Below, one piece after another: positions 3,778 through 14,925 of a DNA stretch of 49,353 nt (within the stretch, counting starts at the first letter, position 1; each line of letters opens with the position of its first letter). Under the pieces are notes generated by a model that was not told where the DNA came from, did not search any database, and saw only the letters and a program-made list of their open reading frames with translations. Origin of the DNA: Pseudomonadales bacterium (GTDB lineage Bacteria > Pseudomonadota > Gammaproteobacteria > Pseudomonadales > Azotimanducaceae). A program made the position numbers and the translations under genes. The stretch spans positions 1-49,353 of the forward strand of contig JANQKS010000117.1 in assembly GCA_028281005.1 (NCBI GenBank), read 5' to 3'.

Positions 3778-5157
3778 CTATAGCTGCCAGTTTGCTGTGC
3801 ACGAAGCGATGGCGCCGCACATCGGCTGACCAACGCTTTCCGTCACCTGGATCCACAGCGTCACCAGCTGGCGCCGCTCGAATACTAAGGAGCGATCAGC
3901 GTCCTGTAGGCCACGCAAGGCGGTCAATACGTCGAGGTAGTTTTGGTCGCCACGAATATAACGATCACGGGCTGTTTCTAGCGCTTGTTGCGCAAAATCC
4001 CGCCGCGCCGACAAGGCCCCAATAACCCTCTGTTGCTGTTGATACTGCCACTGCAAAGAACTCACCTCATTCAGCGCTTCCAGCCAAAGTGCAAAGTAAC
4101 GTTGCCGCCCCTCCTCCAGCACCTGCCGCGCCCGCTGCTCCAAACCCTTCAGCCGCCCGCCGGTGAAAATGGGCGCCGCCAGATCTAATCCATAACCGAC
4201 CCATTCGGAACTCAGGGCTTTGCTGGTCAACGACGTCAAACTGGCCGTGACCTGCAGCGCAGGTAGACGCTCCGCAAAGCGCAACCCCACCTCCGCGGCA
4301 ACTTGCTGTAGGCGCGCATATCCGGCACGGATGTCCGCGCGATGACGAACCAGGTCCTCTACTGCCCCCGTTTCCCTCTGCGTCGGCGCCGTTGGCACTT
4401 GGGTGCGCATGACCCGCGGATTGGCATCCGGGCGTTCACCGAGCAGGACGTCTAGACTGCGTTCCAACGTTCCGCGCCGGGTAGTGTTGACCAACTCTAG
4501 TTGTTCGAGCAGCGCTGTTTGTTCACGTTGCTGATACAACTCGTTTGCCGGCGCTTGGCCAAGACGGAAGCGCGCTTCAATTAAGCGCTCCAGATCCCTG
4601 CTGACACTTGTTTGCGCCGCCAACAGAGACCCTTGGGTGCGCCGCTCGACAATTTGATAGTAGACATCCGCAATAGATGCACTTAATGCCAACACGATGG
4701 CCTGCTGTTCAAACCACCTTTGCTGTTGAAACTGCTCCGCCTGTTCGATGGCAAGTCGACGTTTACCCCACAAACCTGCATCCCACCCGGTCTCCAGCGC
4801 ACCTATATCCGTGCGGGTGTCCGGATCACGACCGCGAAACTCAAATACCTCCCGATTGCCGCGCGCCTGCAGCCACGGCCAACGCGACGCCTTTGCAACG
4901 TTCAACTCAGTTTCTGCCTGCGCAAGTCGAGCAAGGGCGATCTGACGGGATGGGTTGCCGCCCAGACCTTGAGAGATCAGCGCATCCAACACGTCATCGT
5001 CGAAGCTACTCCACCACGGAACGTTGTCCACACGTATTGGCGGATGCTGCATCGACATCTCCTCTTGAGAAATACCTTCAGGCACCAGCCGCACTTCCGG
5101 AGCGGAGACACAACCACTGAGCAGCACCACAGCCACCGTCCATACGCACAGCCGCAT
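3778..5157 (-). CDS. RND efflux outer-membrane factor, TolC/NodT-type lipoprotein
   Basis: This 459-residue outer-membrane channel subunit is the exit duct of the tripartite pump encoded just upstream on the same strand. A lipoprotein signal peptide ends at LLSGC (Cys16 counted from this ATG), as usual for the NodT subfamily. The rest is helix-rich with two internally similar halves, the TolC fold. The pump gene stops at 5160-5162 and this ATG is at 5157, only two bases later. A TTG at 5163 in the same frame would give an overlap of four bases, so translation is coupled either way. Order is adaptor, pump, outer-membrane factor. Nothing in the sequence identifies the exported compound. Confidence 0.9.
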   Translation of the reverse strand: MRLCVWTVAVVLLSGCVSAPEVRLVPEGISQEEMSMQHPPIRVDNVPWWSSFDDDVLDALISQGLGGNPSRQIALARLAQAETELNVAKASRWPWLQARGNREVFEFRGRDPDTRTDIGALETGWDAGLWGKRRLAIEQAEQFQQQRWFEQQAIVLALSASIADVYYQIVERRTQGSLLAAQTSVSRDLERLIEARFRLGQAPANELYQQREQTALLEQLELVNTTRRGTLERSLDVLLGERPDANPRVMRTQVPTAPTQRETGAVEDLVRHRADIRAGYARLQQVAAEVGLRFAERLPALQVTASLTSLTSKALSSEWVGYGLDLAAPIFTGGRLKGLEQRARQVLEEGRQRYFALWLEALNEVSSLQWQYQQQQRVIGALSARRDFAQQALETARDRYIRGDQNYLDVLTALRGLQDADRSLVFERRQLVTLWIQVTESVGQPMCGAIASCTANWQL

Positions 5158-5159
5158 GC

Positions 5160-8100
5160 TCAAAGCGCGGTCTCACCTTTGTCTAAAACTAAATTCCCAG
5201 ACCGCAGCTCGCTTGAAGCAGGTCGATGGCGCTCCAGGGCTACCACGATGCAAGGCAGGAGAACCAAAATCACCGGTATGGAAAACAACATGCCAAACCC
5301 TACGGAGACAGCCACGGGCCGCATGGCTGCCGCTTGAGTGGACGCGCTGAGCATGAGCGGCGCTAGTCCCACCAAGGTGGTGACACTGGATAACACAATG
5401 GGCCGGAATCGGTCTCGCACCGCACACAACATGGCCGCTTCCGGGTTAGCGCCGCGTTTGCGTTCTTCGTCGTAGCGAAGGTGCAACAACAATCCCGCGT
5501 TGATCACCAAGCCACCCAACGCCAACACACCCGAGAAGCTCGCAGCACTTAGGCCAAGCCCTAATACAAAATGGCCAAGCAAAGCGCCGGTCGCGCTTAG
5601 GGGAATACTGGCCAACAAAATGGCACTGTGGCGCAAACTGCGCGCGTAAGCGCCGATCAACACAAAAATAGCCACCAGCACCGCCACGGTCGCCAACATC
5701 AAACCCAACGCGGTTTCTGCGTCTTCATCAGTATCAATCGCTTCATCCCAGGTAATGAGGCCCGGATAAGCCATCTCTAACTGCGGCAACAACGTATCGC
5801 CAACTAATTCATCCACTAACGACTTGGCGGTGATACGCCGATCAATGGTCGCCTCGACCCGTTCAATGCGTTGGCCGTTGATGCGCCGAAACTGCACCGG
5901 CCCCTGCTCCCAATGAATTTTTGCTATGTCCCCCAGGGCAGCCTGGCGACCATTGCTGGCAGTGAGAACAAGCCCATTCAGTTCCGGCAGTATTTGTGAT
6001 TCGGTGTGATTACCGCGAATCATCACCCGCACCTCGTTGCGTCCCCGGGTCAGGCGGGTGGCCTCCAAACCGTCCAGTTGGGCACGCAGGCGACTAGAGA
6101 CCTCCGCTTCGTCAAAACCAAGTGCGCGGCCGGTGGTGGTCAGCTCAAAGCGCACTTCGGAGCGAAACGCATTGCCGCTGTATGAGATTTGCGTAACACC
6201 TGCCACTTCACGCAGTTGTCGAACCAAAGATTCGGCGGCTTGGCGGCTCACGCTTGGATCTGCGTGGGCGATTTCGACGGTCAGATCGCGGCCGTCGCCT
6301 GGGCCTTGCAGGTAGTCGATGGCCAGCTGTGTGAGCTTTGCGGGTTGACCGATGCGATCCCGCCACTGCTCGGCAAATTGTGCCGCTGTGAAGTTACGCC
6401 GTTGTGGCTCCACCAAACTAAAACTCACGGCACCTTGATGACTGACCGGTGCGCCCAGCTCCATATACACGCCTTCGATGTCTTGTTGCGCTTCGATCCC
6501 GCCGCCTTGGCTGACATCTTGACCGCTCAAGTTCATCAAAACTTGTTGTCCCAGTTGTTCAATCTCCGCCGCCATGTCATTCACCTGTTGATCCGACGCT
6601 CCAGGTGTCAGCGCAAAGATGGCAGTAACTTGTTGGCTTTCAAATGCCGGTTGCAAGGAAATAGGCATGCGGCCGCTGACCACCCAGCTGACAATCACTG
6701 CTGCAATCAACAAACCGATACTGATGACCAGGCTACGATTAGCCAGACATTTAGCCACGTAAGGCACAAAGTGATGTTCGCGAAAGTGCTCAAACCGCTG
6801 CTGCACCCACTGCGCATTCTGCCTGCGGCTTACGGTACGTTGTTTTCCGTAGGCAAGATGCGCCGGCAGTATCCATAGCGCCTCTATCAAAGAAACGGCA
6901 AACACACACGTCGTCACCACCGGGATAGCCAACAAAAACAAACCTAACTCTCCCGGCATGAAGAAAATCGGCATAAAAGCGATGATGTTGGTGAGAATGG
7001 CCAGCGTGATGGCGGGACCAAAACGATTGACCGTATCCGCTGCTGCGGCCAGCGGTGACAAGCCCGCCTGGGTACCTGCGTATATCGACTCCCCAATCAC
7101 CACAGCATCGTCCACCACCACTCCAATCACAATGATGAAGGCAAAGACCGAGACAAAATTGATGGTGTAGGGCGTCAAAGCGAACAAGGCAACACCGCCT
7201 AACATGGCCACGGGCAATCCCACGGCTACCCAAAAGGCAACGCGCGCCTCCAGCACCAAAAACAGCAGGATGAGCACCAGGGCCAAACCGATGAGCGCGC
7301 TATCCGCCAGGATGCCGACACGGTCATCGAAACTCTTGGCGTCGTCATCAAATACAACGCTGCCACCCACAGGCATCTCGGTTTCGATTTCGGCAAGCAA
7401 TGTTCGGACGCTATTCGACACCTCACCCGGCGTTGCAGTACCGGTGCCGTATACGGTCATCATCACACCGAGCGAACCGTTGATACGGTAGCGTTTACCA
7501 TGCGGCCGAAAACCGTTTTCAACTTCACCGATCTGCGCCAACGTCAGCGGCACGCCACTGTCTGATTCAATAATGGCAATATCGGCAAACTCATGTGCGT
7601 GCTGACGATCAAGACCGGTAGACAACCCGTACTCACCCATCGCACTTCGAATGGCGCCACCGGATTGCTCAAAGGTGGCCCGTCGAATCTGCGCGGCAAC
7701 ATCACTTAACGACACGCCAAACAAGCGGCTTCTGTCCGGGGAGACTCTTATTGTGATTTCCGGTTCACCAGCGCCTTCTACATCCACCTGACCAACCGCG
7801 GGCAGCGCCAACAAGCGGTCTCTGGCAAGCCCGGCAAATGTGTGCAACTCATCCCGAGTGGTGAAACCGTAGAAACCGATATCGAGCTCACCACCACCAT
7901 CGCGAACCTGAATGATGGTAGGGGGTTCGAGGTCTACCGGTAGCGCGCTAATGCCGTCTATGGCGCTGCGTATCTCGTCCAGAGTCCGCTGTGCATCAGC
8001 ACCGTCTTGCAGCATGACAAAAATGTTTGCACCGCCTGAACGTATTTCGCTGACCACCGTGCGAATGTCGCGCAAAGTGTCGATACTTTGCTCCATCGGT

Positions 8101-8330
8101 TGCACCACCTGAACTTCCACTTCCGAAGCGGTGGCTCCGCGGTATTCCGCACGAATCTCGATGGTGTCCAACACCGCATTGGGAAACACTTCCTGACGCA
8201 TGTTGAACACCGCGATCAGCCCACCCGCGATGAACACCCACATCAGCAGATTTGCGGCGGTAGGGTTATATAGAAACCACGTTGAGATGCTGGGCTTCGG
8301 ATCTGAGCTCACTTCAGGAACCTGCTGCAC
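5160..8330 (-). CDS. RND efflux pump inner-membrane subunit (AcrB superfamily)
   Basis: This 1056-residue proton-driven exporter has the usual AcrB superfamily length. The first membrane helix is around residues 27-44, followed by a large periplasmic loop, helices 2-7 at roughly 340-560, a second periplasmic loop and helices near 870-1040. The proton-relay aspartates are in GVVVDDAVVIGE at residues 407-408, with Glu414 following. The position of AcrB Lys940 appears to be Ile in GLVINAG of a late helix, as in several non-AcrB RND subgroups. The start is GTG at 8330, inside the end of the adaptor gene (17-base overlap). A second GTG six codons later is also possible. The substrate class is unknown. 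Confidence 0.94.
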   Translation of the reverse strand: MQQVPEVSSDPKPSISTWFLYNPTAANLLMWVFIAGGLIAVFNMRQEVFPNAVLDTIEIRAEYRGATASEVEVQVVQPMEQSIDTLRDIRTVVSEIRSGGANIFVMLQDGADAQRTLDEIRSAIDGISALPVDLEPPTIIQVRDGGGELDIGFYGFTTRDELHTFAGLARDRLLALPAVGQVDVEGAGEPEITIRVSPDRSRLFGVSLSDVAAQIRRATFEQSGGAIRSAMGEYGLSTGLDRQHAHEFADIAIIESDSGVPLTLAQIGEVENGFRPHGKRYRINGSLGVMMTVYGTGTATPGEVSNSVRTLLAEIETEMPVGGSVVFDDDAKSFDDRVGILADSALIGLALVLILLFLVLEARVAFWVAVGLPVAMLGGVALFALTPYTINFVSVFAFIIVIGVVVDDAVVIGESIYAGTQAGLSPLAAAADTVNRFGPAITLAILTNIIAFMPIFFMPGELGLFLLAIPVVTTCVFAVSLIEALWILPAHLAYGKQRTVSRRQNAQWVQQRFEHFREHHFVPYVAKCLANRSLVISIGLLIAAVIVSWVVSGRMPISLQPAFESQQVTAIFALTPGASDQQVNDMAAEIEQLGQQVLMNLSGQDVSQGGGIEAQQDIEGVYMELGAPVSHQGAVSFSLVEPQRRNFTAAQFAEQWRDRIGQPAKLTQLAIDYLQGPGDGRDLTVEIAHADPSVSRQAAESLVRQLREVAGVTQISYSGNAFRSEVRFELTTTGRALGFDEAEVSSRLRAQLDGLEATRLTRGRNEVRVMIRGNHTESQILPELNGLVLTASNGRQAALGDIAKIHWEQGPVQFRRINGQRIERVEATIDRRITAKSLVDELVGDTLLPQLEMAYPGLITWDEAIDTDEDAETALGLMLATVAVLVAIFVLIGAYARSLRHSAILLASIPLSATGALLGHFVLGLGLSAASFSGVLALGGLVINAGLLLHLRYDEERKRGANPEAAMLCAVRDRFRPIVLSSVTTLVGLAPLMLSASTQAAAMRPVAVSVGFGMLFSIPVILVLLPCIVVALERHRPASSELRSGNLVLDKGETAL

Positions 8331-9477
8331 CTTTTTCGGTCACGGCCATTTCGGCCGCGGCGGAATCGGTCGAGGCCACTTCTGCCCCGTCGAACAAACC
8401 AATGGGTCGCTCGATGATGAGCGCATCAGCGGAAGCAAAATTATCTTCCACCGCCACCATCCCCCCCTGGTTTTCGATGGGGTACAAACGATGGCGGTGT
8501 GCGCGTCCCTCGCGATAAACCCAGATGAGATTTCCGCTGATGATGAGATTTGCTGGGACCAAAGCCACATGACGCTGCTGCTGAGCTTCTATGTTGGCCT
8601 GCAGGTGCATACCGTAGGCCCAACCCGAATGATTCAGCGGTTCGTCTACGCGCACACGGACCGTTGCAAGGCGCGTATCTTCCGTGAGATTTCTAACAAC
8701 GCTGTCGAACGTTCCCACAACTGTCGGTGCATTCGGGTCATGTATCGGCCGCAGCAATATTTGTTTGATACCCGCATCAAACAAGCGCAGTGTTTGCATC
8801 GGTACCTGCAACTCAACCACGGCAAAATCCAGCGGGAACAGGGTGGCTGTGACTTCACCAACCGACAGTAATTGCCCAACAATGGCGTTGGCGTGCACCA
8901 CGCTGGCAGGCCATGGCGCGCGCACTTCGGTCCGCTCCAACGCCAGTTTGGCACGCTCCAAGTCGGCCAATACGGCCTTGCGTCTGGCCACGGCTTCCGC
9001 CCGCTGGGGTTCGCGCAGGGCTAATGGATTGGCAGACTCTGCCTCAGATTGGTTTCTCTGCCAAGTGGCCCATTCCAACTGTGCTATCTCGGCCCGGCCC
9101 TCTTCCAGCACTATGTTGGCTTGGGCTTGGGCGTATCGCGCCTCGGCACTCGACACCGCAATCAAGTAATCACGCTGGTCAATTTGGAACAGCAAGTCCC
9201 CTTGCGCCACTTGGTCGCCCGCTTCCAACTGCTCGCTGACCCAGGTAATTTCACCGGGGACCTGGGTAGTCAATTGCAGCGTTTGCCGTGGCAACAGCAC
9301 GCCAAATGCGTCAACGCGATTGGCCACCATGGCACGTTCTAGCCCACCCAATACAACACGTGGCTTGCCCTGGGGAACGCTGGCCTCCAACGGTTGTGGG
9401 CCCGTGAGCAAGATCAGACTACATAGAGCAAGCCCGACACAACAGGCCAACAACACTTTTACATGAGCGCGATGCAT
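8314..9477 (-). CDS. RND periplasmic adaptor (HlyD/membrane-fusion protein)
   Basis: This 387-residue periplasmic adaptor links the inner-membrane pump to the outer-membrane channel. A membrane anchor or signal peptide lies at residues 7-26. A barrel-sandwich (lipoyl-like) half follows at about 60-95, then a helical hairpin at about 100-165, the second lipoyl half near 170-200 and beta-barrel segments after that. It is the first gene of the pump operon and overlaps the pump gene by 17 bases. Its ATG lies exactly 7 nt after a TAACAT -10 element, with no ribosome binding site, which suggests a leaderless message. The promoter carries the 18-bp box shared with the ABC transporter and two-component operons. 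Confidence 0.92.
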   Translation of the reverse strand: MHRAHVKVLLACCVGLALCSLILLTGPQPLEASVPQGKPRVVLGGLERAMVANRVDAFGVLLPRQTLQLTTQVPGEITWVSEQLEAGDQVAQGDLLFQIDQRDYLIAVSSAEARYAQAQANIVLEEGRAEIAQLEWATWQRNQSEAESANPLALREPQRAEAVARRKAVLADLERAKLALERTEVRAPWPASVVHANAIVGQLLSVGEVTATLFPLDFAVVELQVPMQTLRLFDAGIKQILLRPIHDPNAPTVVGTFDSVVRNLTEDTRLATVRVRVDEPLNHSGWAYGMHLQANIEAQQQRHVALVPANLIISGNLIWVYREGRAHRHRLYPIENQGGMVAVEDNFASADALIIERPIGLFDGAEVASTDSAAAEMAVTEKGAAGS

Positions 9478-9484
9478 GGGCCAG

Positions 9485-9518
9485 ATGTTATGCCCCGGCC
9501 GGTTAACGTTGGGTTAAC
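9485..9518 (-). promoter_or_regulatory. Promoter and direct-repeat box of the RND pump operon
   Basis: Read on the minus strand, the box GTTAACCCAACGTTAACC (9518 to 9501) is two perfect GTTAACC heptamers 11 bp apart. It is followed by exactly 10 nt and then TAACAT (9490 to 9485). The adaptor ATG at 9477 begins 7 nt later. This is the layout of an OmpR/PhoB-type activator site overlapping the -35 position. The same arrangement occurs before the ABC transporter and the two-component genes. Confidence 0.8.
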
Positions 9519-9541
9519 GTCAGCGCTACTTGATGCCTTCC

Positions 9542-12049
9542 TTATTGACCGCGCAGCAGAGAGGCAGGCTGTAGCTTCAACCGGCGCATGAGATAGTCGG
9601 CCCCCGCATACAGGCAGATGGAGCTCACACCAAAGGCCGCGATGACCGCAGGCCAGAGTGGGAAGGTGAGCGGTAGTCGCAGCTGAAAGTGCATCAGCGG
9701 CAGCGCAATGAGAATGCCAAGCGCCAAACCAAACACCGAAGTGACCAGCGCCAGCAAAACGTACTCCATGCTTAAGCTTGCGCGGATGACTCCTAAGCGC
9801 GCACCAATGGTATGCAGAATGGTGGAGTAATAGACCTGACGTGAACGGTGACTCGCCATTACGCCCGTTAGCACCAACAAACTGACACTTAGCGCCACCG
9901 CAGACACCACGGCTAACCCTGCTACCGCCTTACCCAAAAGATCTTTGGCGGTGGCGACGATAGTGGCGGTGCGGACAGAGACGATGTTGTAGGCCACATC
10001 GGCAATTTCATTCTGCGCGGCTATCGCCCTGTCTTCCGGCATGAAACTGGCACCCACATAGCGCGTTATGTAGCTATCGAGCACCCCATCGGAAAAAATC
10101 GCCTCAAACCAAAAGCGAGTCTGTAAACCTTGCTGCCGATAAATACCGGTTAACTCTGCTTGCAGTTGGCGACCGTCGATCGTGAAGGTGAGCATGTCGC
10201 CAATCTCGAGTCCAATTTGATTGGCTTCACGATCTTCTATTACCACATATGCGCGTTCCGGATCGGTCTCGGCAGGCCACCAGCTGCCGCGCACCATGGT
10301 CACGCCATCAATGTTGCCTTCTCGATAAGTCAGCTTGTGTTCGTCCCGCGCTTCTCGTTGCGCTTCTAGGCTGCTTTCAGAATCTGCCTCGGTACCGTTG
10401 ATGGCCGTCAATCTGCCTTGTACCAGGGGTACCAAATCGATTTGCGTAGCGCCCTGCCGCTCCAAGATCTGACTGACTGTCTCACGCTGCTGCGGCGTCA
10501 CGTCAAACAAGACTAGATCCGGCGACTCCTGTGGAATGGTACCCGCAATGGTGTCCAGCAACGTTGAAATCAACACGGTGCATGCAACCAGCAGCGTTAA
10601 CGCCGATCCGAGGGTCAATAAAGAAGCGCGCAGCGCCGAGCCATGGCGATGCAAATTCGCCAGCGCTAAGTGCAAGGCAAAATGGCGACGCGTTGGAGCG
10701 CGGGCGTCTAGTCTCAGTGCAACATGCCTAATCAAGCGAACGATGCCTTCGAGCAGTAGCAACAAACCCGCCAACGTACCGGCAAACGCCAAGGCAAAAA
10801 TCGGATCTGGCAGGACCAGCAACACCAGCAGCAGAATTAGACCTGCACCACATACGGTGGCAATCCACCATGGGCGTGGTGTGCCAGTTACCGCGCCTTC
10901 AAGACTGCGAAACAACACCGCCGGATCCACCGACAAAGCCCGCCCAATCGCCGGCGCGGCAAACGTCATGGCGGTCAATAAGCCAAATAGCGCAGCAAAA
11001 ACACTGGGCAGTACGGCGCTGCTGAGCGCGGTATCTACCTGAACTTGCGTGGCTGCAAAGGCTGCCCCGGCAAATGCCAGTAAAAAACCCAGCACAGCAC
11101 CCGCAATACAAGACAACCCGCTCATCATCAATATCTGCAACAGATACACGATGGCTAATGGACGATCATGCAAACCAACAGATCGCAAGGTGGCAATGGT
11201 ACCGAGTTTGCCTTGCAGATAAGCCTGAACGCTGTTGAACACCCCCAGGCCACCAATAAATAGCGTACTGAAGCCCACAATGATCAACGCCGAGCCCGCT
11301 TGCGCCAGCCGTTCGCCGATGCGGTCGCTGCGGTCCATGAAGGTGCTGACCTCCCACTCGGTCCCCGGAAAAGCCGCAAACAACTGACTTTGCCATGCCG
11401 CGGGGTCCAGCTCCGTGCGCACACGATACTCGTACTCCAGTCGGCTACCTGGTCGTATCAAACCACTTTCAAGCAAAGCTTGTTCCGAGATCATGACCGG
11501 GCTACCCAACCAACTGGCGGTAAGGTTGCGGTCGGGTTGTTCCGTAATTAAAGCGCGAACTTCGAACAATAGCTCCCCAATCTCTACCTCATCCCCAACC
11601 ACAAGACTCAGCCGATCAGCCAACACCGGGTCCATGGCCAGGCCAAACTGGCCGTCAACCATACGCGTAACTTCCGCGAGCGGACGTGCAGGGCTTAAAG
11701 TGAGCGCACCATACAGCGGGTAGTGCCGGTCTACGCTCTGTACTTCCACCACCTGAAAGTCGCCCGCCTGGGTGCCCATCATGGTGTCAAGCTCTATCAG
11801 AAGAGATACGTCGCCCCGCTCCCGCATCCAGCCGAGAGCTGGCTCTGGCAGCCGTGCACGTGATTCCACCTGCAGATCACCGCCGCTATATTTACGGCTA
11901 TCTGCCTCCAAGCCGCTCCAGACTTGCTGATACAACCCCGCTGTGGCCGCAACCAGAGTGACGCCGAGCAACAAGCAGGCGCACAACACCCACAAGGACT
12001 GGCCGCTGCCGCGCAGATCTTGCCAGGCGAGTTTAAGCAGAAAGCGCAT
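9542..12049 (-). CDS. ABC transporter permease, FtsX/MacB fold (YbbP-like)
   Basis: This 835-residue permease is of the long YbbP/LolC-type architecture with two FtsX domains. One N-terminal helix (about 15-40) is followed by a periplasmic domain, then a cluster of membrane segments at roughly 250-430. A second anchor follows (around 480-510), then another periplasmic domain and three C-terminal helices (about 710-830). Such systems use ATP hydrolysis to move or extract lipids, lipoproteins or hydrophobic compounds at the periplasmic face. The gene overlaps the end of the ATPase gene. The ATG at 12049 fits the usual family N-terminus; an in-frame ATG at 12079 would add ten residues. The substrate is unknown. 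Confidence 0.88.
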   Translation of the reverse strand: MRFLLKLAWQDLRGSGQSLWVLCACLLLGVTLVAATAGLYQQVWSGLEADSRKYSGGDLQVESRARLPEPALGWMRERGDVSLLIELDTMMGTQAGDFQVVEVQSVDRHYPLYGALTLSPARPLAEVTRMVDGQFGLAMDPVLADRLSLVVGDEVEIGELLFEVRALITEQPDRNLTASWLGSPVMISEQALLESGLIRPGSRLEYEYRVRTELDPAAWQSQLFAAFPGTEWEVSTFMDRSDRIGERLAQAGSALIIVGFSTLFIGGLGVFNSVQAYLQGKLGTIATLRSVGLHDRPLAIVYLLQILMMSGLSCIAGAVLGFLLAFAGAAFAATQVQVDTALSSAVLPSVFAALFGLLTAMTFAAPAIGRALSVDPAVLFRSLEGAVTGTPRPWWIATVCGAGLILLLVLLVLPDPIFALAFAGTLAGLLLLLEGIVRLIRHVALRLDARAPTRRHFALHLALANLHRHGSALRASLLTLGSALTLLVACTVLISTLLDTIAGTIPQESPDLVLFDVTPQQRETVSQILERQGATQIDLVPLVQGRLTAINGTEADSESSLEAQREARDEHKLTYREGNIDGVTMVRGSWWPAETDPERAYVVIEDREANQIGLEIGDMLTFTIDGRQLQAELTGIYRQQGLQTRFWFEAIFSDGVLDSYITRYVGASFMPEDRAIAAQNEIADVAYNIVSVRTATIVATAKDLLGKAVAGLAVVSAVALSVSLLVLTGVMASHRSRQVYYSTILHTIGARLGVIRASLSMEYVLLALVTSVFGLALGILIALPLMHFQLRLPLTFPLWPAVIAAFGVSSICLYAGADYLMRRLKLQPASLLRGQ

Positions 12050-12725
12050 GCGACGGACGTTCCAGCAAGTTACCCCCATCGAGACGCAGTTGGCGATCGC
12101 AACGCGCCGCTAACGCTTCGTCATGAGTGACCAGCACCAACGTGCTGCCTAGATTACTGTGTAAATCAAACAGCAGTTCACTGATTGCACTACCGGTGCT
12201 CTTATCCAAATTACCGGTGGGTTCATCCGCCAATATCAATGGTGGGGCATGCACCAGGGCACGGGCGATCGCGACACGTTGCTGCTCACCGCCAGACAGC
12301 TGCCTCGGGTAGTGTGAAACACGATGCTCAAGCCCGACCCTTCGCAACATGTCCTTGGCTTTAGATTCTGTATCCGGGTCGCCTGCTATTTCCAAAGGCA
12401 GAGAGACATTACCGAGGGCGGTGAGACTGGGGATCAAATGGAACGACTGAAACACTATCCCCATGCGGTCGCGCCGCAGGTCCGCCAATTCATCAGCAGA
12501 TAAATCAACCAGCCGAGTCCCCTGTATCTCAATTATACCCGTGTCTGGATGGTCGAGGCCCGCAAGCAATAAAAGCAACGTCGTTTTGCCCGAGCCCGAC
12601 GGTCCAATCACCGCAACACTTTCCCCGGCGTGGATATCGAGGCTGACGCCGTTTAACACCGCCACCCTGGATTGGTCTACCGGGTAACTCATAGCAACGT
12701 CTTTTAGCCCAATCATCAAACTCAT
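12033..12725 (-). CDS. ABC transporter ATPase, LolD/MacB/YbbA family
   Basis: This 230-residue ATP-binding subunit powers the FtsX-fold permease encoded just downstream. Walker A is GPSGSGKTT (about residues 41-49), the Q-loop is in VFQSFHLIP, the signature is LSGGEQQR and Walker B with the catalytic glutamate is [12 protein letters not shown]. The NLD ending is typical of the LolD/MacB/YbbA group. The H-loop is VTHDE. The ATG at 12725 has a GGGAG site about 10 nt upstream. A GTG at 12746 in the same frame is a weaker alternative. Pairing with an 835-residue permease resembles E. coli ybbA-ybbP. Its promoter carries the shared direct-repeat box. Confidence 0.94.
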
Positions 12726-12781
12726 TGGTGTACCACTCCCGTGCAAACTTCAATCAAACACGCTGTTGACCGCAGCCCAAC

Positions 12782-12815
12782 ATACTAGGTCGCGCAGGGT
12801 AAACGCTGGGTGAAC
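12782..12815 (-). promoter_or_regulatory. Promoter and direct-repeat box of the ABC transporter operon
   Basis: On the minus strand the box GTTCACCCAGCGTTTACC (12815 to 12798) has two GTTNACC heptamers 11 bp apart. It is followed by exactly 10 nt and TAGTAT (12787 to 12782). The expected transcript start near 12775 leaves a leader of about 50 nt before the ATG at 12725. Box, spacer length and -10 type match those of the RND and two-component promoters. Confidence 0.78.
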
Positions 12816-12852
12816 ATGCGGCAACGCTATGGTTCCGCTCTACAAGCGCAAT

Positions 12853-14193
12853 CTAGAAAACCACCGATGTCACTCTGCCACCGGACACCTCGTCTGATGT
12901 GAATTGCCATTCGAAGCGTGCGCAGATACGGCTGACCAACTCAAGCCCAAAACCAAAGCCATAATCGACATCGCTACTCAACTCTGCGTGAGCGGAAGAC
13001 GGCACGGCACTGACGTTTTCTATCGACACTCTAGTTTTCGATATCGTGATCTTCACAGCCCCTGCTACCGTGTACTGGAACGCATTGCGCAGTAGGTTCG
13101 ACAAGACCACACGTACCGCCGCGGCCGGTGCTTTCACCGTAGCATCGCCATGCACCGACCATGCCACATCCTTTGCGTCCAACAGGTAGCGATAGTTGTC
13201 CGCAATCTCGGCCAGCTCTTCGCGCAAATCGATTGTTTCGGGTTTAGGCGTATTTTCGGTTTGGCGGTTGATCCATAACAGCGTCTCCATCAGCAACTTC
13301 ATCTCATCCAGCGCTTGATACTGGCGCTTAAACGCGGCCTGCTCCGCTTCTGTACGCTCCGGCCGCGCCGAGAGCCGATCGATGAGCTCTACGTTGGCGG
13401 ACAAAATGGCAATGGGGGTGCGTAGTTCGTGACTGGCGTGGCGCAGAAACTGCTCTTCTTTGTCGACCCCTTCCCGCATACGTTCAAACGCAAATTGGAT
13501 GCGCCGAGCCAGCGTGTCCAGTTCACGAAAGCGCAGATCAGGAATGTCTTGGGAAGGTGTGCCGCTATTCTGTGCGGCACTCCAGAAGTTCAACTTACGC
13601 AGGGGCGCATCAATGTTGCGCACCAGTAAAATGGCGATGAGCAGCAGCATCCCCACAAATAGGGTCCCGACTGTCACCGCGACGCGATCACTGAGCTCCA
13701 ACTCTTCGTAAATTTCTTCACTGCCAACAATGCCGTGCACCAAGTACAACCACTGCCCTTGTCTGATTTCATAGGTATAAAGGAACAACAGTTCACAGGT
13801 GCCTTCAATACAGAAATCCAGGGTATCCACTGCAAACTCTTTTTCATCGTTGGCATCAAAATCCAAATTGACAAAACGCTGTGCCTCTCCGTGTTGCAAG
13901 CGTTGCGTAGGAAACAGCGCGAGCAGGTGTGGCGGTATATCGCTGAGATCCCGATAACCCACCAAGTTACGGCTCACCGGCATATCCGGGTCTTGCCCTG
14001 CATTGAAGTTGTGCGCGTATGCTTCTGCGGTGCGCTCAAGGAATGACTGTGTACGTAAATCGATCCCCAGCACCAGGTAATAGTCCAGCAATTCGGTATA
14101 CGCGATAGCCATGACAATGGCACAGCCGGTAAACCACGCGAGCAAGTACCGCCGCAAGCTGGGTAACGTGCGGGAGGCAGCCTTATCGCTCAT
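12853..14193 (-). CDS. Membrane sensor histidine kinase
   Basis: This 446-residue kinase partners the response regulator encoded immediately upstream. Counted from the ATG at 14193, membrane helices lie at about residues 18-38 and 172-192. Between them is a periplasmic sensor of roughly 130 residues with an acidic stretch (DFDANDEKE) and a close cysteine pair (DFCIEGTC). A HAMP-like linker follows. The phosphoacceptor is His255 in RHASHELRTP, and the ATP-binding domain shows the N-box NLLRNAFQY and a glycine-rich GFGFGLEL. The gene overlaps the regulator's stop by about 11 bases, so the two are co-translated. The signal sensed is unknown; envelope damage or a toxic compound fits the neighbouring pumps. 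Confidence 0.93.
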   Translation of the reverse strand: MSDKAASRTLPSLRRYLLAWFTGCAIVMAIAYTELLDYYLVLGIDLRTQSFLERTAEAYAHNFNAGQDPDMPVSRNLVGYRDLSDIPPHLLALFPTQRLQHGEAQRFVNLDFDANDEKEFAVDTLDFCIEGTCELLFLYTYEIRQGQWLYLVHGIVGSEEIYEELELSDRVAVTVGTLFVGMLLLIAILLVRNIDAPLRKLNFWSAAQNSGTPSQDIPDLRFRELDTLARRIQFAFERMREGVDKEEQFLRHASHELRTPIAILSANVELIDRLSARPERTEAEQAAFKRQYQALDEMKLLMETLLWINRQTENTPKPETIDLREELAEIADNYRYLLDAKDVAWSVHGDATVKAPAAAVRVVLSNLLRNAFQYTVAGAVKITISKTRVSIENVSAVPSSAHAELSSDVDYGFGFGLELVSRICARFEWQFTSDEVSGGRVTSVVF

Positions 14194-14884
14194 GGGGTGC
14201 CCGGATGGCAACGCCGTGGGTAGCCACGGTATGCAGCAGCTGGGTGGTGAAGGGTTTGTCCACCTGTTGACGCAATTTATATAAATGCACCTTTAAGACG
14301 TCGGAATCAGGGACTTCGGTTGTGCGCCAGATGGCATTGGTCATCTTCTCGCGGCTCACCACGTTTGGCGACTCGCGCATCAACAGCTCTAGCAGGATCC
14401 AACAGGTGGGGGTGAGGCTGAGCACTTGCCCTTCGCGAACCGCCATTTTGTTGGACAAGTCTAACTCCAGCGGACCTACCGTTAGTTTTTGCACCTGTGC
14501 ACTGCGACGCTTTGCCAACGCTTTGACCCGTGCAGTTAACTCACTCAACTCAAAGGGTTTAACAAGATAGTCATCGGTACCGGCGTCAAAACCCGCGAGC
14601 TTGTCTTCTAACGTGTCTCTGGCTGTGAGCATCAGCACCGGCACTTCAACGCCTGCTTGCCGCAATGCCTCGCACACCGCCAAGCCATCCATATGCGGTA
14701 AGTTTATATCCAACAAGATGGCTTGGTACTCGTTGCTCAGCGCCAACTCCAAACCTTGCACACCGGTTGCGGCGTAATCGCACTCGATGTCTTCCAGATC
14801 AAGATAGGAGATCACCGTCTCCGCTAAGGAGAGATTGTCTTCAACCAGCAGGGTTTGGATGGTCATGGCCACTGTTCCGAGCAT
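14183..14884 (-). CDS. OmpR/PhoB-family response regulator
   Basis: This is a DNA-binding regulator of 233 residues (227 if it starts at the inner ATG, 14866). The receiver domain has the acidic pair in LLVEDN, the phosphoacceptor Asp59 in LLDINLPHMDG, Thr in LMLTARD and Lys in LVKPF. The C-terminal winged helix (about 135-230) is of the OmpR type, which binds pairs of direct half-sites about 11 bp apart. That is the spacing in the box found before this gene and before both transporter operons. The ATG at 14884 lies 7 nt after the TAGCAT -10 element, the same geometry as the adaptor gene, which favours a leaderless start there. Domain alignment alone would favour 14866. Confidence 0.94.
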   Translation of the reverse strand: MLGTVAMTIQTLLVEDNLSLAETVISYLDLEDIECDYAATGVQGLELALSNEYQAILLDINLPHMDGLAVCEALRQAGVEVPVLMLTARDTLEDKLAGFDAGTDDYLVKPFELSELTARVKALAKRRSAQVQKLTVGPLELDLSNKMAVREGQVLSLTPTCWILLELLMRESPNVVSREKMTNAIWRTTEVPDSDVLKVHLYKLRQQVDKPFTTQLLHTVATHGVAIRAPHER

Positions 14885-14891
14885 TCTCAGG

Positions 14892-14925
14892 ATGCTAGCT
14901 CACGCGAGGTTAACGGTGGGTAAAC
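14892..14925 (-). promoter_or_regulatory. Promoter and direct-repeat box of the two-component operon
   Basis: On the minus strand the box GTTTACCCACCGTTAACC (14925 to 14908) has two GTTNACC heptamers 11 bp apart. It is followed by exactly 10 nt and TAGCAT (14897 to 14892), and the ATG at 14884 comes 7 nt later. The presence of the box here suggests the regulator controls its own operon. Confidence 0.8.

Follow-up and report, generated by a model that had tools for sequence, protein, structure and literature searches.

As described in excerpts of the respective papers, PhoB recognizes a pair of direct repeats of 7 bp, with 4 bp after each of them, and its Escherichia coli box usually substitutes for the −35 element (PMC4971064); mycobacterial PhoP binds head to tail to tandem 7-bp sites with 4-bp gaps (PMC4832192). 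PmrA reads direct hexamer repeats that are 5 bp apart (PMC3973317, PMC4660055), CTTAAG and XTTAAT in Salmonella and CTTAAT and CCTAAG in Klebsiella (PMC3973317), and contacts the bases through T187, N188, V192, H195 and N196 (PMC4660055). Positive autoregulation is reported both for CzcR, which also induces czcCBA, and for AgrR, a Type II activator (PMC7380067). Here we analyse a stretch of 49,353 nucleotides from a Pseudomonadales bacterium of the Azotimanducaceae (assembly GCA_028281005.1, contig JANQKS010000117.1), called the window below, in which a box of the form GTTNACC-N4-GTTNACC precedes three operons, encoding a response regulator and sensor kinase, a YbbA/YbbP-like ABC system and an RND tripartite pump. 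The regulator-kinase pair very probably switches on itself and the two transport operons through this shared box.

The kind of regulon, with an OmpR-family regulator and PhoB-like geometry, is already known, but the regulon itself is new. The original prediction had called it not described. This holds for the operator and the regulator clade, for which no description was found in the open-access literature (most subscription journals lay outside the search). Joint control of ABC and RND exporters by one two-component system, on the other hand, is not unheard of.

The window box and that of PhoB share 7-bp direct repeats with 4-bp gaps, and the exact box-to-−10 distance in pho promoters is the basis for a further resemblance; the pho half-site differs from the one found here. 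Enterobacterial PhoP boxes are GGTTTA-type direct repeats located ca 12 bp from the −10, and czcCBA, the target of CzcR, is an RND pump. The likeness to PmrA/BasR concerns the OmpR-family regulator and the 11-bp repeat period, with TTNACC as the window half-site, and the structures 4s04 and 8jo2 are relatives of the window regulator, DrrD (1kgs) and PrrA (1ys6) scoring higher. The base-contacting residues of PmrA align with S, D, V, Y and K in the window regulator (read by eye), and the window half-site ends in ACC instead of AAG or AAT; contact residues unlike those of PmrA are indeed what is expected for a different half-site. AgrR differs in its core box, which is the inverted repeat ATKACA-N4-TGTMAT, direct repeats being described in the excerpt only as an extra at some operators (PMC7380067). 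The window regulator stays below the NCBIfam cut-offs for PmrA (166 bits, cut-off 330), PhoB (140 bits, cut-off 296) and enterobacterial PhoP (113 bits, cut-off 336), and also below that for CzcR/CopR/SilR (TIGR01387; 180 bits, cut-off 279). A TTAAC motif in PMC10805311 belongs, according to the excerpt, to a HigA site.

The box and its rarity in the genome

The boxes and the −10-like hexamers that follow them are:

14908..14925 (−): box 1, GTTTACC-cacc-GTTAACC (GTTTACCCACCGTTAACC), before the regulator-kinase operon
14892..14897 (−): −10-like hexamer TAGCAT, 10 nt past box 1
12798..12815 (−): box 2, GTTCACC-cagc-GTTTACC (GTTCACCCAGCGTTTACC), before the YbbA/YbbP-like ABC operon
12782..12787 (−): −10-like hexamer TAGTAT, 10 nt past box 2
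9501..9518 (−): box 3, GTTAACC-caac-GTTAACC (GTTAACCCAACGTTAACC), before the RND pump operon
9485..9490 (−): −10-like hexamer TAACAT, 10 nt past box 3

The sequence bears out the original prediction. The three boxes lie on the coding strand at the positions it had given, each followed by exactly 10 nt and a TANNAT hexamer, and the proposed OmpR/PhoB-type geometry at the −35 position is present, with half-sites repeating every 11 bp and no recognizable −35 element in the window promoters, where the similarity is at best 1–2 of 6 letters in the three promoters. Direct repeats with an 11-bp period at a fixed distance to the −10 are the features of an OmpR/PhoB-family operator. All three boxes are found in gaps of 64–127 nt before the predicted first genes of the operons (start codons as chosen here).

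On the two strands of the whole own genome (G000; 135 contigs with a total of 5,135,096 bases), GTTNACC-N4-GTTNACC has exactly three matches, all of them in the window, and the extended pattern GTTNACC-N4-GTTNACC-N10-TANNAT matches only these three sites. With independent bases at the GC content of the window, 0.56 perfect boxes would be expected in the genome, the chance of three or more being ca 0.02, and only 0.0013 boxes with N10 and TANNAT. The reversed-pattern control of the perfect box gave no matches in the same genome, both strands.

When two mismatches are allowed, the pattern is hardly or not enriched in the window, with 7 matches compared to 3.5 expected and 4 of 100 shuffles reaching 7; two of the seven are boxes read on the opposite strand. 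Also in the whole genome there is no enrichment, as two mismatches together with TANNNT give 12 matches and the reversed control likewise gives 12. The two-mismatch counts are thus those of the background, which means that the three perfect sites stand apart, and no further own-genome targets are claimed from the degenerate search. One site at the background level is found at 127–160 (−) of locus L225, on contig C103 of the own genome. It reads GTTCACAATCGATTCACC-N10-TAATAT, has two mismatches to the box pattern and lies close to the contig end, which interrupts the reading frame beyond it.

Conservation of the box with the regulator clade

A search with the regulator gave 80 loci. The best site scores at least 13/15 in 16 of the 24 loci in which the regulator is at least 50% identical, compared to only 1 of the 56 other loci, and shuffled half-sites (n=298) reach on average 0.54 of the 24 loci, with a maximum of 6. 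The spacing of the window also scores best. When the gap between the half-sites is scanned from 0 to 11, a gap of 4 yields 16 loci and any other gap at most 2, and when the distance to the −10 is scanned from 4 to 19, a distance of 10 yields 16 loci and any other at most 9. A relaxed form of the box, TTNACC-N5-TTNACC-N10-TANNNT, has 34 matches in the genomes of the 24 loci, compared to 9 for the reversed control; by inspection, 13 of them lie before the adaptor or channel gene of an RND operon, 2 before the regulator and 5 before a cytochrome b561 gene. In a logo of 36 boxes, chosen partly by motif, from which near-duplicates were omitted, as were the weaker sites of G103 and G175, positions with at least 1 bit occur only in the half-sites and in TANNNT.

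Among the close relatives, in line with the original prediction, the boxes are conserved in orthologous promoters. The perfect box precedes the pump operon in all five relatives in which this promoter is available (L037, L039, L040, L041 and G482). In the first four of these, whose regulators are 75–78% identical, the pump genes follow directly after the kinase with the box in between. G482 has the order of the window on two contigs, regulator-kinase-ABC (L038) and permease-pump (L181), with an 11/12 box before the ABC gene and the perfect box before the adaptor.

A one-mismatch box precedes the ABC operon both in G482 and in G044. The permease has a match in 157 of 200 family genomes, but among the matches listed a close one is found only in the own genome and in G044, G103, G175 and G047 (60–79% identical in the latter four), the remaining matches listed being 22–28% identical. 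The ABC promoter carries an 11/12 box in G044, a 10/12 box with the −10 one base closer in G175 and a 9/12 box in G103, and no box is found close by in G047. The weakened or missing box in G103, G175 and G047 coincides with the lack of a close regulator orthologue in these family members. The full perfect pattern with TANNAT is absent from all 119 other family genomes scanned.

Autoregulation, which had also been proposed, is a different matter. The box is present before the regulator in the window, but in the 160 nt before this gene none was found in any of the five nearest relatives, and autoregulation at the regulator's own promoter is local to the window.

More widely, the relaxed box is found in marine metagenome-assembled genomes, Zooshikella, Marinobacter, Methylophaga and Colwelliaceae, where it precedes operons that are linked to an orthologue of the regulator. 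In 12 loci of Methylophaga, Marinobacter, Thalassomonas and Colwellia type (L045, L050–L058, L071 and L074) the operon is channel-adaptor-RND-regulator-kinase, so that the regulator itself is part of the boxed operon; this order was taken from open reading frame lists for six loci, and from an RND match just before the regulator for the others. The upstream box has 10/12 half-site letters with TANNNT in L045, L050, L051, L054, L056, L057 and L071, 9/12 with TANNNT in L052, L053, L055 and L058, and 10/12 with GATAAT in L074. At L049 the upstream region is cut off by the contig end.

The two Zooshikella have the box before the regulator, with the −10 ending ca 195 and ca 330 nt upstream of it, and another box before an adaptor-RND operon; the RND protein of the latter shares 21% identity with that of the window (L047). 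In L042–L044 the gene behind the box codes for a TonB receptor, as assigned by Pfam for L042 only, and is followed by regulator and kinase; the box has 11/12 letters in L042 and L043 and 9/12 in L044. The L042 and L043 sites are among the 16 scoring loci; the idea that they are chance matches inside a coding frame was dropped, as the gene probably starts only downstream of the box, at ATG 5543. Finally, small genes of cytochrome b561 type also have the box before them in Colwelliaceae, either next to the kinase or at other places in the genome (L134, L135, L152, L153 and L154; Pfam assignment for the L054 copy only).

In many gammaproteobacteria the box has stayed with the regulator, and what has changed is the set of genes that it precedes. 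The operons concerned comprise RND pumps that are mutually 21–27% identical, the YbbAP-like ABC system, the TonB-dependent receptor and cytochrome b561.

The same division is seen in the recognition helix. Box-bearing regulators have the helix D[ST][ND]-x-LKVH (DGNSLKVH in L045), whereas the box-less paralogues, ca 47–52% identical, mostly read LRSH, LRTH or LRGH, the exceptions being L064 (LKVQ) and L060 (LKIH). In a tree of 55 regulators, which omits L081–L116, all 30 LKVH rows fall together with L064 in one branch of 31 rows with a support of 98/98. The sites, their spacing, their conservation with the regulator clade and the matching recognition helix are in this way directly observed.

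A second group of regulators, with LRSH or LRTH helices and 49–52% identical, is found in the own genome and in G103, G044 and G275 (L214, L176, L177 and L230, respectively). In 12 loci examined for an operator of the LRSH-type paralogues (L230 lay outside the set), no consistent 11-bp repeat with TANNNT at a distance of 10 was found.

Mechanism and alternative explanations

We now consider how the box would work. The kinase would sense an envelope signal and then phosphorylate the regulator, and the phosphorylated regulator would bind GTTNACC-N4-GTTNACC head to tail, with one DNA-binding domain per half-site. The bound dimer would be centred ca 31 bp upstream of the transcription start, in place of the missing −35 element, and would recruit the sigma-70 polymerase in the manner of PhoB and PmrA. 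The operons activated would be the regulator-kinase pair, the YbbA/YbbP-like ABC system and the RND tripartite pump. Activation in place of the −35 is the best reading because the −35 similarity is weak and exactly 10 nt separate the box from the −10. To the whole of this, that is, binding of the phosphorylated regulator as a head-to-tail dimer that replaces the −35 and activates all three operons, we assign a probability of roughly 85%.

A number of points weigh against it. Regulator binding, its dependence on phosphorylation, and activation rather than repression are steps that we infer. In a wider check of the −35 region (n=15), the best similarity was 3/6 in one promoter and 4/6 in another. 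Among the regulators, L046 has only a weak site despite its LKVH helix, and for L062 (43% identical, LKVH helix) no clear box was found. L064, on a long branch inside the LKVH clade, reads LKVQ and has an 11/12 half-site pair without a −10. In G103, a 13/15 site lies ca 4 kb from a regulator that is 52% identical and reads LRSH (L176); this site is taken as chance. G044 has its 11/12 box and yet no LKVH regulator was detected in this assembly, which is 89% complete. Lowering the threshold to 12/15 gives a poorer separation, with 23 of the 24 loci compared to 18 of the 56, and 14 of the 34 relaxed matches precede other or no recognized genes. A scan of the order (293 genomes) gave 3 non-own matches and 2 in the control, which is the background level.

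The scan of the class (369 sampled genomes) was not enriched either, with 36 matches compared to 48 in the control, as counted by eye, and a wide class-level use of the box was rejected. This count excludes the own genome and G687. In the latter, contig C1 carries 15 relaxed box-like matches, of which the 10 listed are all identical, and which probably represent a repeated element. The box is thus uncommon in genomes that lack the regulator, and it is the gene behind it that marks true sites. A test in the reverse direction used genomes chosen for a box before an outer-membrane efflux gene, namely all three non-own genomes of the order scan and G847, the only one of 29 non-own class-scan loci examined in which the next gene matches an outer-membrane efflux protein. 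All four (G253, G360, G275 and G847) carry an LKVH regulator, 52–56% identical, ca 6 kb downstream on the same strand. As G253 and G360 are near-identical at the locus, the four genomes amount to three independent cases.

The alternative that survives best, although we regard it as unlikely, is that the regulator binds the box but mainly represses, or activates and represses depending on its phosphorylation. A protein on the box would occupy the core promoter upstream of the −10 and could block the polymerase there. Without a −35, however, the three window promoters should be weak unless they are activated, and the N10 distance resembles that of PhoB, whose E. coli box, according to the excerpt, usually substitutes for the −35 (PMC4971064).

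Another option is that a different protein reads the box, for example a second OmpR-family regulator, and that the neighbouring one is not cognate. The own genome indeed has 12 regulator matches, that is, 11 besides the one in the window, the next closest being 49% identical, on contig C103, with an LRSH helix; G044, moreover, has the box but only LRSH and more distant regulators. Across loci and genomes, however, the box goes with the LKVH clade rather than with the LRSH group, and we consider this option very improbable. None of the seven other own-genome regulators with a printed helix reads LKVH.

A local duplication of one promoter segment, which would explain the likeness of the three sites without a shared activator, can practically be dismissed. 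The sites do lie within 5.4 kb, but neither the flanks nor the spacers of these promoters are evidently similar (by eye), and in distant genomes the box is retained between flanks that differ.

Activation by the LKVH regulator remains the preferred reading. For a two-component system present in gammaproteobacteria, of which many are marine, there is now a defined operator together with a regulator clade that is probably cognate and a regulon as predicted from the boxes. Pumps without a known substrate can in this way be placed under a testable signal, and comparison with the LRSH-type paralogues, a contrast provided by nature, may help to learn how DNA is read by OmpR-family helices. The wider proposal, in which the LKVH branch across the gammaproteobacteria keeps its operator almost unchanged and exchanges the operons behind it, making up a hitherto undescribed envelope-response regulon in which a readable code links helix and operator and the adaptor mRNA may be leaderless, has in our judgement an even chance of being right.

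The last element of this proposal comes from the spacing at the pump promoter. The adaptor ATG starts 7 nt past the −10 hexamer in the window, L037, L039 (where the hexamer is CACACT), L041 and G482 (L181), and 8 nt past it in L040. Judged from this spacing only, the adaptor mRNA is predicted to be possibly leaderless or nearly so, with transcription starting at the ATG or a few bases from it; alternatively, the adaptor may start a few codons downstream of the assumed ATG. If the mRNA is leaderless, this would tie translation directly to the activated promoter.

Genes of the locus

The genes behind the three boxes are:

14183..14866 (−): OmpR/PhoB-family response regulator (Pfam Response_reg and Trans_reg_C; recognition helix PDSDVLKVHLYKLR)
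12853..14193 (−): sensor histidine kinase (Pfam HisKA; HATPase_c just below the cut-off)
12033..12725 (−): ABC ATPase, LolD/YbbA-like (profile matches, below the curated YbbA cut-off)
9542..12079 (−), start possibly ATG 12049: FtsX-fold permease, YbbP-like (PF02687)
8314..9477 (−): RND periplasmic adaptor, a membrane fusion protein (TIGR01730, above the cut-off)
5160..8330 (−): RND inner-membrane transporter (PF00873)
3778..5163 (−): outer-membrane efflux channel (PF02321)

The regulator has a receiver and a winged-helix Trans_reg_C domain and the kinase has HisKA and an ATPase domain, which together make a two-component system. The HATPase_c match of the kinase is 23.2 bits (cut-off 26.4), and H255-E256-L257-R258, N366 and N370 are invariant in 25 aligned kinases. 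The structure model of the kinase (pLDDT 76, pTM 0.42) has a small domain between two long helices. These N-terminal helices are read as membrane-spanning, and the domain of ca 95 residues that they flank as periplasmic. The fold matches of the kinase core include HprS and CusS. No informative match was recognizable for the sensor domain, the 50 listed of 458 fold matches being kinase cores or whole sensor proteins.

Adaptor, transporter and channel are adjacent on one strand in a predicted operon and make up an RND tripartite pump. The ABC pair resembles that of YbbAP-TesA, with both proteins below the respective cut-offs: the permease has 190 bits for YbbP (NF041854, cut-off 999) and the ATPase 234 bits for YbbA (PRK10584, cut-off 336). 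By analogy with YbbAP-TesA, as presented in an excerpt of PMC12646458, and with the pump, a role in removing hydrophobic compounds may be guessed.

A second YbbP-like gene is found on contig C87 of the own genome, 25% identical to the window permease. In G047, the ABC ATPase gene matches as two pieces ca 300 bases apart (L120, 7679–8673) and looks interrupted. In Oceanospirillum beijerinckii (L148), a relaxed box lies 95 nt before an ABC ATPase gene, in a stretch without a regulator.

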